NCBI RefSeq assembly: GCF_000512895.1
Contig: NZ_CP007033.1
Coordinates: 650,001 to 714,000, forward strand
Origin: Dehalobacter restrictus DSM 9455
GTDB lineage: Bacteria; Bacillota; Desulfitobacteriia; Desulfitobacteriales; Syntrophobotulaceae
Direction: 5' to 3'
DNA: 64,000 bases
A model generated the notes under the pieces. It worked only from the letters and a program-made list of their open reading frames with translations. It ran no database searches and was not told the origin of the DNA. Every line of letters begins with the position of its first letter. Position 1 is the stretch's first letter. The position numbers and the translations under genes were made by a program. This document shows, piece after piece, positions 5,856-59,393 of the stretch.

Positions 5856-5875
5856 AAAAGGCGGTGTTGCAAAAC
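5856..5875. repeat. Left terminal inverted repeat of IS1182-type element
   Basis: Matches the reverse complement of 7874-7893 at 17 of 20 bases; defines the left end of the element. Confidence 0.8.
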
Positions 5876-5922
5876 TACAAATGTAGTGGGGCAATACCGC
5901 CTTCTCCAATAGTTAAATAAGT

Positions 5923-5960
5923 AGCCAGCAAAATCGTTATAGGTTTTAGCTGGCTTTTTT
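5923..5960 (+). terminator. Rho-independent terminator inside the left end of the IS
   Basis: AGCCAGC (5923-5929) pairs with GCTGGCT (5949-5955), flanked by AAAA/TTTT that extends the stem, followed by a T run to 5960. It would stop plus-strand transcription entering the element toward the antisense side of the transposase gene. Confidence 0.65.
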
Positions 5961-6007
5961 CATAACTGGATAGTCATAGGTATGACTAATAAGGCTCAAG
6001 AAGGCAG

Positions 6008-6113
6008 GGTGATGCAATGTCTACCCGCTTTCGGCAAGTTGCGCCCTCCGTGGCGCAAAAAGCCGCGCTGCGCAATCCATGCTCCGCTTATGCTGGTTAG
6101 ACATTGCATCGCC
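6008..6113. repeat. Structured repeat element, copy 1 (inside IS1182 element)
   Basis: A 106-nt element with a 16-bp terminal stem: bases 6008-6023 pair with 6098-6113 (GATGCAATGTCTA and its complement), extended by CC/GG. The core contains CCGCTTTCGG and a 7-bp hairpin TTGCGCC (6039-6045) / GGCGCAA (6052-6058), then GCCGCGCTGCGCAATCC. The core is homologous to the reverse complement of 59083-59192, where the terminal stem has an unrelated sequence. Coding strand unknown; GAAA-type loops appear when read on the minus strand here. It may be a structured RNA or a small mobile element. Confidence 0.75.
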
Positions 6114-6173
6114 TAATCTTTGGTCTTTGTAATCGATATGTCTTTGGAAGTAAGCATGTCTATCCCGCTAGTA

Positions 6174-7778
6174 TCAAGCCGTCTTTAGCCGGTGAAGCGG
6201 TTTCCCAATGCGCTCATTCTGTATTTTAGCATGAAGCTTGTTGAAGTTATATCCAAAGCACAACAGCATAAACTCATTTTTCACACTTACTTTGCCGCGT
6301 GTTAAGAAACGATTGAAGTTGTAATCGTTCTTCAAGACCCCGAAGGCGCCTTCCGCCTGAATAGACCGATTTACCCTAAGTAAGATACCTTTTTCGGATG
6401 TAATATTCTCATAGGATACCTGGCGTTTCTCGATGAATTTCTTGGAAACCTGCATCCGTCGGTTTCCTTTGGACTTTGTACACTTCTCTCTCTTGAGACA
6501 GCCTTGGCAGTCCTCGCATTCATATACCGTTATTTCAGACCGATAACCGGTTGCTGACATTCTATTTGTGATTCCTGCAGGTTTAAGTTGCTTGCCGTTA
6601 CTGCAGGTGTATTCGTCTTTTTCGGCATTGTAATCCATGTTTTCTCGTTTGCTGATATCATTTTTAAAACTTCTTTTCTTCCATTGCTCATACGTTTGCG
6701 GCTTGATGTAACAGGCCTGTCTTTGCTTCTCCAGATACAGATAGTTTTCTTCACTTTCATAGCCGGAGTCGGCAATGATGTTCTTGTACCGGTATTTTAA
6801 GCGGCCCTCCATCTCTTTTAAAAAGGGGATCAGCGTGTTTAAGTCGTTTCTGTCTTGAAAAATATTCATGCCCGTTATGTATTCGCCTTCGACTCCAATC
6901 TGAACATTGTAAGCCGGCTTTAGCTGGGCATTGCGCATATGGTCGTCTTTCATATGCATGAAGGTGGCATCCGTGTCTGTCTTGGAGTAGCTATTTCTGC
7001 CATTAAACAGAGCATTATGTTTATCGTATTCTGCCTGACGTAAGGAAAATTCTTTGATTTGTTCGGTATATCGCTGCAATTCTGTCTTCCGTTTGCCAAT
7101 GCCATAAACAAATTCGATGTTTTCTTCTTTTTGCTTCTCCTCTAAATACATGACTATTCCCGCCAGATCACGGCACAGGCTATCTTTGTTGACGCTGAAA
7201 TTTGTATGGTAGGTTTCATTAATTTTCTCCAGGCAACCTTGTATCTTAGTAAACATTTTGCTTTCATTTTTGCTCACTGCCTTCTTCCAAACGAAGGTAT
7301 AACGATTGGCACTCGCTTCAATTTTTGTCCCGTCGATGAACAGATTTTCGAAGGCTACTTCGCCGATCTGATGCAGATAGATGACCATTTGATAAAATAA
7401 TCCGTCGATGGCATCGACGAGATAGTCTTTTCGAAACCGGGCAATGGTCGAATGATCCGGGGTCGGATTTCCCCCCAAGAGCCACATGAAATTAATATCT
7501 CTTCGGCAGGCTTTCTCAATATTTCTGCTCGAATAGATATTGTTCATGTAAGCATAAGTCAGCACCTTGAATAGGATTTTTGGTTCGACTGCAGGTTTTC
7601 TTCCGGTAGAAGAGTATGCCTGATAGAGCTCTTTGTAGTTTAATCCCTCCAGTATGTGGCTGAGCAGTCGAACGGAGTCATCCTCCGGTATTAATACCTC
7701 AAAATTAAATGGTAAAACTAATTGATACCCATCATGATATTCTGTATAATTTTTGTTGTGTAATTTATTTAGTTGCAT
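6174..7778 (-). CDS. IS1182-family DDE transposase
   Basis: A full-length 534-residue transposase. The N-terminal half has the family's conserved GRKPAVEPKILFKVLTYAYM and the PTPDHSTIARFR segment; catalytic acidic residues are visible in FIDGTKIEASANRY, IADSGYESEENY and AEGAFGVLKNDYNF. A cysteine-rich insert (CSNGKQ, CEDCQGCLKREKC) is typical of the family and probably binds zinc. The frame is uninterrupted and the terminal repeats are present, so the element could still be mobile. A second element of this family is not seen in the window. Confidence 0.93.
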   Translation of the reverse strand: MQLNKLHNKNYTEYHDGYQLVLPFNFEVLIPEDDSVRLLSHILEGLNYKELYQAYSSTGRKPAVEPKILFKVLTYAYMNNIYSSRNIEKACRRDINFMWLLGGNPTPDHSTIARFRKDYLVDAIDGLFYQMVIYLHQIGEVAFENLFIDGTKIEASANRYTFVWKKAVSKNESKMFTKIQGCLEKINETYHTNFSVNKDSLCRDLAGIVMYLEEKQKEENIEFVYGIGKRKTELQRYTEQIKEFSLRQAEYDKHNALFNGRNSYSKTDTDATFMHMKDDHMRNAQLKPAYNVQIGVEGEYITGMNIFQDRNDLNTLIPFLKEMEGRLKYRYKNIIADSGYESEENYLYLEKQRQACYIKPQTYEQWKKRSFKNDISKRENMDYNAEKDEYTCSNGKQLKPAGITNRMSATGYRSEITVYECEDCQGCLKREKCTKSKGNRRMQVSKKFIEKRQVSYENITSEKGILLRVNRSIQAEGAFGVLKNDYNFNRFLTRGKVSVKNEFMLLCFGYNFNKLHAKIQNERIGKPLHRLKTA

Positions 7779-7798
7779 AACTAAATTATACAGTATTT

Positions 7799-7821
7799 GC
7801 GGGCTCTTTGAGCCCGCTTTT
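7799..7821 (+). terminator. Hairpin terminator upstream of the transposase start
   Basis: GCGGGCT (7799-7805) pairs with AGCCCGC (7811-7817) and is followed by TTTT on the plus strand. Lies just inside the right end of the IS1182-type element. Confidence 0.6.
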
Positions 7822-7873
7822 GCTATTTCTCACGCAATAAAAGTAGGGCTATTGCCCACGAACGGTTACGTTC

Positions 7874-7893
7874 GTTGTGCAACAGCCCCTTTT
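7874..7893. repeat. Right terminal inverted repeat of IS1182-type element
   Basis: Partner of 5856-5875 (17 of 20 matches when inverted); marks the right end of the element beside the hypothetical gene at 8069. Confidence 0.8.
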
Positions 7894-36765: not shown

Positions 36766-36870
36766 CAAAGAGGAATCATGCAGTAACATGATTCCTCACA
36801 ACAGCCGCTTTAAGGGCGGTCGGCAGATGAATACGGATAGACCGCTATCCATGTGAGTTGGGCGGTCTAT
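36766..36870 (+). ncRNA. Candidate antisense RNA of the type I toxin
   Basis: A TATAAT box at 36755-36760 on the plus strand would start an RNA near 36767 running convergently into the 3' end of the toxin gene, as RatA does toward txpA. The -35 region is weak and the 3' end cannot be placed; coordinates are an estimate. Confidence 0.35.
36770..36797 (-). terminator. Terminator of the type I toxin mRNA
   Basis: An 11-bp perfect stem (GAGGAATCATG / CATGATTCCTC) with a 6-base loop. Read on the minus strand it is followed by TTTGCTTAT, so it should end the toxin transcript about 70 bases after its stop codon. Confidence 0.65.
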
Positions 36871-36950
36871 TTCCGTTTGTGGAAAGAAAGTATCAAAACC
36901 ACCAATGTTCCGAAGGATATCATCAGTGTTAATGTTTGATATACTTCCAT
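36867..36950 (-). CDS. Type I holin-like toxin (TxpA/Hol-Tox type), 27 residues
   Basis: The peptide begins MEVYQTLTLMISFGTLVVL and ends HKRK: a single membrane helix with a basic tail, matching the putative holin-like toxin family of Firmicutes. These peptides insert into the membrane and are silenced by an antisense RNA. AAAGGAGGTGA is a perfect ribosome site, but the bases GGAGG are covered by CCTCC just upstream (stem at 36958-36972), so translation should be self-inhibited. In addition 36976-36987 (leader) and 36814-36825 (3' region) are exact 12-base complements, allowing the long-range leader-tail pairing known in type I toxin mRNAs. Confidence 0.82.
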   Translation of the reverse strand: MEVYQTLTLMISFGTLVVLILSFHKRK

Positions 36951-37053
36951 GGCATCACCTCCTTTCCGGAGGGAATGCCGACCGCCCTGCACGCCATCTG
37001 TTGCAGGGTTATTATAACATAAATTACCAGAATAAACCATATAATAACATAAA

Positions 37054-59012: not shown

Positions 59013-59082
59013 CCATGAACTCGTACAATATTCTATAATTCTTTACTCAAATGATTTCATAAAATCTGATTACCCCATATTA

Positions 59083-59192
59083 GGTCTGTGTGCCACAAGT
59101 TCCAGCGTCAAGCGAAGCACGGATTGCGAAGCGCGGCTGTTAGCGCCAAGGATGGCGCTATCTGCCGAAAGCGGAATTGTGGCACACAGACC
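59083..59192. repeat. Structured repeat element, copy 2 (bce locus)
   Basis: A 110-nt element with a perfect 16-bp terminal stem: GGTCTGTGTGCCACAA (59083-59098) and its complement (59177-59192). The core holds GGATTGCGAAGCGCGGCT, the hairpin TAGCGCC (59141-59147) / GGCGCTA (59154-59160), and CTGCCGAAAGCGGAA. Its reverse complement is homologous to 6013-6100, but the terminal stem sequence is different, and one pair inside the hairpin differs in a compensated way (T-A against A-T). Confidence 0.78.
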
Positions 59193-59228
59193 AACCCCAG
59201 ATAAAAAGAATGTTAACATGACAAAAAT

Positions 59229-59244: not shown

Positions 59245-59393
59245 CTTAAGTCATGGCAGATCCTAACAAGACCTTTTAAAATAAACTCGTTGATTGATTG
59301 CTTAGCGCTAGCTATCCATTACGCTGACTAATTCTTAGCTATTATCGGGATTTATGAATCGATCTACTCGTAGAAGTGAGCAGGGAGGTAACC

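Follow-up and report, generated by a model that had tools for sequence, protein, structure and literature searches.

Small mobile repeats in bacterial genomes are usually seen as the defective leftovers of transposons. Transposition in the Tc1/mariner group, to which the non-autonomous IS630-family MITEs belong, is established to have no ssDNA intermediate (PMC2170065), and a reference in that source describes a preference of IS630 for TA within CTAG. REP sequences are 20-40 bp and carry GTAG or CGTC tags (PMC3733652). Hexaloops of the sequence CANGGANG have been described as high-affinity CsrA/RsmE sites (PMC4894983), and stable d(GCGNAGC) mini-hairpins have also been described (PMC4686876). 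The repeat reported here has features in common with several of these systems.

Copies in the analysed sequence

The window is the whole 64,000 nucleotide stretch of the Dehalobacter restrictus DSM 9455 genome that was analysed. Two structures with a common core had been predicted in it, and both are present, at 59083-59192 and 6008-6112. The reverse complement of the first core (59099-59176) aligns with the second (approximately 6024-6097), the two having in common the blocks CCGCTTTCGGCA and GCCGCGCTnCGCAATCC and a GCGCC hairpin; in the sequence alignment, one pair of the inner hairpin is T-A in one copy and A-T in the other. The 16 bp terminal stem of the copy at 59083-59192, supported by sequence and fold, is perfect, with its left arm (GGTCTGTGTGCCACAA) at 59083-59098 and its right arm (TTGTGGCACACAGACC) at 59177-59192, both on the plus strand. 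The stem at 6008-6112 is of the GATGCAATGTCTA type and includes one G-T. When folded, both copies are much more stable than shuffled sequences, with z of -5.5 and -8.6. Their covariance model scores of 145 and 118 bits confirm family resemblance only, because both copies are in the training set, and the model identifies no further full copies in the window.

For the copy at 59083-59192, the plus strand of the core is referred to as the ANGGA strand, since ANGGA is present in the loops of both of its hairpins. Hairpin 1, TAGCGCCAAGGATGGCGCTA, is at 59142-59161 and hairpin 2, GC-GAA-GCACGGATTGC-GAA-GC, is at approximately 59113-59134, both as read on the plus strand. Between this element and an ABC transporter gene there is a further arm, GCTATCCATTACGCTGAC (59311-59328, plus strand), which is of another stem class, being the reverse complement of GTCTCCGTAATGGATAGC with 2 mismatches. 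It is probably a decayed neighbouring copy.

Copy numbers in Dehalobacter and its relatives

The element was originally predicted to be in two copies, which holds for the window but not for the genome sequence as a whole (2,943,336 bp), where approximately 70 copies were identified using BLAST and the covariance model, most at E <= 4e-11. Four congeners have 91 to 99 matches each, a count that takes in some opposite-strand matches, and each Dehalobacter-type genome has approximately 70 to 100 copies. Several genomes of the same family have 1 to 54 matches each. Some copies have extra hairpin branches. For the model, 21 copies were aligned using MAFFT without fitting to structure; copies taken from the congeners were mostly the top-scoring ones, and copies were read as separate sequence stretches. 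No copies were found in the plasmids, phages, and viral contigs searched.

That the element belongs to no named family agrees with the searches made here. It has no Rfam match at the gathering score and no description was found in the partial literature collection searched. The one Rfam match in the window is elsewhere, to BsrG, a type I toxin-antitoxin antisense RNA (36773-37003, minus strand, 70.8 bits against a gathering score of 55). The element belongs to a family of small mobile DNA repeats that is abundant in Dehalobacter-type bacteria and apparently undescribed.

IS630-type ends of the whole unit

From the sequences on either side of 97 model hits, the hairpin is seen to be inside a larger unit of approximately 200-285 bp. 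The unit ends are TIRs, (C)TA followed by GTACAACRTTCT, within 5'-CTAG-3'. Both ends are inverted copies of CTAG followed by TACAACRTTCT, and the DNA outside them is unrelated between copies except for CTAG. In the window, the hairpin had thus been located correctly at 59083-59192, but the repeat unit around it is larger, extending from 59023 to about 59217 on the minus strand, the strand of the model orientation (CCGCTTTCGGC..), with the right end approximate. The left end, 59023-59052, agrees with the IS630 end at 23 of 30 bases, a match seen in 0 of 500 shuffles. The outer TIR here, CTCGTACAATATTCTATAATTCTTTACTCAAAT, is at 59020-59052 on the plus strand and has a degenerate CTCG target, rather than the CTAG of other copies. 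The right end, AGAATGTTAAC at 59207-59217, is decayed and is a weak match.

When 74 genomes of the order were searched with the unit end, an inverted pair of unit-type ends, 1.24 kb apart and at CTAG, was identified in G020, a genome of the same family (L390 823-2063). This pair encloses a 374 aa ORF with DDE_3, which matches the NCBIfam IS630 family (NF033545) at 212 bits, the cut-off being 100. Both ends of the G020 IS630 are 74-90% identical to the unit ends over 30-49 bp. A truncated second copy of it is present in L391. No copies of the core were found in G020, the carrier of the intact IS630, and it is only in this same-family genome that an autonomous IS630 with matching ends was found. 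Within the genus, a non-exhaustive TIR search identified no autonomous IS630 partner and no end match that bounded a transposase gene; the end matches fetched were mostly beside the core or a variant core, and the rest were isolated or without a partner end. The 200-285 bp unit is too short for any gene.

Given the preference of IS630 for TA in CTAG, the boundary is read as C-TA, then GTACAAC...GTTGTAC, then TA-G. Full units have CTAG at each end even though their flanks are unrelated, and the filled and empty pheS-pheT sites agree with this. The TA is read as having been duplicated under the IS630 rule; the flanks alone do not separate duplication of TA from that of CTAG.

The unit ends, the left end in the window, and the element-free sites together identify the vehicle as an IS630-type MITE. 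Ordinary IS ends had been set against the idea of a structured element. Ends of an IS630 are indeed present, as the vehicle, but the element is not simply a pair of IS ends. With a probability of approximately 0.78, we consider it to be an IS630-type MITE with a conserved cargo, in which pairing and a bias to one strand have been maintained and that strand presumably acts single-stranded. Units would be mobilised in trans by an IS630-family transposase. The cargo between the IS630-type ends consists of a terminal stem closing two hairpins, or more in the branched copies; the stem may have nearly any sequence provided that its arms pair, the hairpin loops read ANGGA or CANGGANG on one strand, and it is this ANGGA strand that would act in single-stranded form.

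Empty sites

A different explanation for the variable stems, raised with the original prediction, is that the core inserts inside palindromes that were already there. The stems are wholly different from copy to copy, with a separate stem for every Marinospirillum copy, as this idea would expect. The comparison of orthologous loci shows otherwise. The pheS-pheT gaps of G003 and G006 have no element and no palindrome, and the element's own genome has no unoccupied palindrome of the GTCTG..CAGAC type, which is the common one. In addition, the whole unit, stem included, lies between IS630-type ends, with identical stem classes at many sites. Since the empty pheS-pheT sites lack a palindrome, insertion into pre-existing palindromes fails as an explanation; it is contradicted in Dehalobacter, and we have rejected it as highly improbable.

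Pairing and strand bias of the core

Across 93 distinct copies, 95.3% of the pairing cells pair. There are 239 double-change cells, compared to 49 in shuffled and 16 to 35 in slid controls, with the significance against shuffles being overstated because the copies are related. Double changes are seen in 12 of the 15 pairs of the terminal stem. Alignment A5 is structure-fitted, and the same pattern is present in alignment A2, which is not.

The mismatches in the model orientation, with the outermost pair left out, are A.C in 56 cases and G.T in 9, and therefore G.T mismatches outnumber A.C on the complementary strand. Counted as distinct sequence contexts, there are 28 A.C and 9 G.T (P = 0.003), a count in which descent is corrected for only in part. 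It is also the complementary, ANGGA, strand that folds better, in 75 of the 93 copies using RNA parameters and 92 using DNA parameters, although these counts are not independent because the core is common to the copies. The CANGGANG sequence is on the ANGGA strand of 85 of the 93 copies (two or more times in 24) and on the other strand of 2. Hairpin 1 contains ANGGA in 84 of 91 copies, against a shuffle mean of 7. Hairpin 2 has the form GC-GNA-GC-(ANGGA)-GC-GNA-GC, the first N being mostly G and the second free, and nearly all of its loops contain GGA. One Dehalobacter copy (L155 1171-1300) has hairpin 1 in the opposite orientation to the rest of its core, and the extra branch of the Gracilibacter copies (L088, L089, and L110) is likewise inverted with respect to the core.

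The strong covariation, coupled with a strand preference in both wobbles and stability, bears out the suggestion that pairing is under selection. Base pairing has been kept in the core, as has the preference for one strand. Stems could also come to match without any selection, if quasi-palindrome correction or template switching copied one arm onto the other. This would account for wholesale stem changes on both arms in units that are otherwise homologous, and for the different stem classes found between species at a single gap-pyk site (G000 1440196 and its orthologues in G003, G004, and G005), where two species have the CTCCATAATGGATAG class and two others have GTCTGCATGCCACAATTCC. What it fails to predict is that wobbles and stability are both biased to one strand, that the loops are conserved, and that the core recurs in other phyla. 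As wobble and stability favour one strand, palindrome correction alone is insufficient, and we regard the absence of selection as quite unlikely, though such correction may contribute to stem turnover.

Arrangement relative to genes

Genes were called heuristically from simple ORF rules, and on this basis the assessed copies are in intergenic DNA, flanked by genes that are either co-directional or convergent. The orientation of the copies is balanced, with 23 having the ANGGA strand in the sense of the gene and 22 not. A cis-acting mRNA element of fixed sense was therefore rejected, and the presence of copies in both orientations weakens any fixed RNA role. At the sampled loci, neighbouring copies have the order + - in 21 cases, and the orders - + and - - occur in 2 cases each; one of the loci entered this count two times. 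There is a CTAG in the spacer of several + - pairs, and these look as if one unit had inserted at the tail of another. Plus and minus copies are approximately equal in both halves of the chromosome, hence there is no replication-strand bias.

Other carriers and other phyla

The second copy in the window (6008-6112, plus strand, stem class GGTGATGCAATGTCTA), supported by sequence, fold, and the covariance model, is inside an IS1182-like insertion sequence (5856-7893, minus strand), which was delimited by its duplication boundary and its ends, AAAAGGCGGTGTTGCA and AAAAGGGGCTGTTGCA. The copy is downstream of the transposase gene (6174-7778, minus strand; DUF772 and DDE_Tnp_1_6) and before the IS end, and its ANGGA strand is the minus strand, which is the sense of the adjoining transposase mRNA. 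This IS1182-like insertion sequence, with the element inside, occurs for a second time at approximately 1.84 Mb of the genome. The core is thus carried by at least two kinds of vehicle.

A scan of 84,980 species genomes with a 23-base core pattern identified matches beyond the Dehalobacter relatives in Marinospirillum alkaliphilum and Marinospirillum perlucidum, which are Gammaproteobacteria, and in one Oscillospiraceae MAG. The letters of the pattern are conserved in these matches by construction. Features outside the pattern are still present, with quite different sequences: the flanking CGGC, a hairpin 1 whose loop carries GGA on the same strand, and a terminal stem that closes the structure. 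Each of the seven Marinospirillum copies has its own stem, closed with small internal loops, and the core there is not enclosed by IS630-type ends. The family is rare outside these groups, as judged from two samples, one of 369 Gammaproteobacteria and one of 398 genomes from the phylum of the window. Apart from Dehalobacter, the latter sample gave only weak single matches, under strict filters that can lose matches. Weak Gammaproteobacterial matches outside Marinospirillum (24-33 bits) were rejected, as the full architecture is absent. Other GC-rich repeats have hairpins tipped with TCC/GGA, such as GGTTTCCGCGCTACGCAGTCCCTGCTTCGCTTGAAACC, in L245, L253, and L255 (from the Gammaproteobacterial G340) and in L246 and L248; these have only the second-hairpin motif in common with the core.

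An interior that is conserved between phyla, with a one-strand fold kept despite stem turnover, points to selection on folded RNA or ssDNA within a MITE.

Possible functions of the cargo

The leading idea for the ANGGA strand, though of less than even probability, is that it acts as RNA that presents docking hairpins of the CsrA/RsmE type whenever a copy is transcribed. Because CANGGANG is a described CsrA/RsmE site and all three lineages have csrA, docking of CsrA is the most specific testable idea. A fuller version of it, which we hold only tentatively from the sequence features, is that the cargo is a functional RNA in which at least two CANGGANG hairpins dock CsrA dimers, serving as a decoy or for tuning of the element or its neighbours by CsrA. 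The ANGGA of hairpin 1 and GGA of hairpin 2 have been kept while the stems change, the CANGGANG hexaloop matches the described high-affinity sites (PMC4894983), the Dehalobacter, Marinospirillum, and Oscillospiraceae genomes have csrA, and the extra branches supply more such hairpins. On the other hand, there is no orientation bias relative to genes, the extra branch is inverted in Gracilibacter, as is hairpin 1 in one Dehalobacter copy, and genomes without copies have csrA just as often, making its presence uninformative as a discriminator of hosts. If the CANGGANG hairpins do bind CsrA, then mobile DNA would seed the binding sites of a global regulator throughout the genome.

After RNA, the likeliest form is folded ssDNA. 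An enzyme might, for example, recognise the folded strand while DNA is being replicated or transferred, in the way that TnpA-REP recognises REP hairpins. Using DNA parameters, the ANGGA strand folds better in 92 of 93 copies, the fold is independent of gene orientation, and the GNA units of hairpin 2, with N free, are as in the d(GCGNAGC) mini-hairpins (PMC4686876). Set against this, the vehicle is DDE/IS630-like, a type without an ssDNA intermediate (PMC2170065), there is no replication-strand bias, and no Y1/RAYT gene was found in G003-G005, despite more than 90 matches in each, nor were any copies found near Y1 genes elsewhere. We regard function as ssDNA as unlikely. Y1/RAYT was also rejected as the mover of the element, being absent from several copy-rich genomes and not adjoining copies.

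A broader reading would have a cross-phylum folding module, with a free stem and conserved CANGGANG tips, ride unrelated transposons and act as a mobile CsrA-binding RNA genome-wide. Its vehicles would be IS630-type MITEs, the IS1182-like insertion sequence, and others in Marinospirillum and Oscillospiraceae. We consider this unlikely.

Comparison with described systems

The REP/BIME/REPIN sequences associated with RAYT (TnpA-REP) are likewise multicopy palindromes outside genes that frequently form inverted pairs and can fold as single strands, but the Dehalobacter units are 200-285 bp and have IS630 (GTACAAC) ends. The CsrA-sequestering RNAs of the CsrB/RsmX/Y/Z type have several hairpins with CANGGANG/ANGGA loops in approximately 110 nt, and multiple CANGGANG-type GGA loops, as expected of such RNAs, are found in this family. 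In contrast to these RNAs, the Dehalobacter copies are dispersed, mobile, and in both orientations, with a variable closing stem and no Rfam match. The MITEs of the IS630 family are also short units with no ORF, with TIRs that match an IS630 insertion sequence, with a TA target in CTAG, and with copies dispersed in intergenic regions. The Dehalobacter unit differs from them in that its interior is a conserved folding core, rather than the remnant of a transposase gene, and this core is also present in other phyla without these ends.
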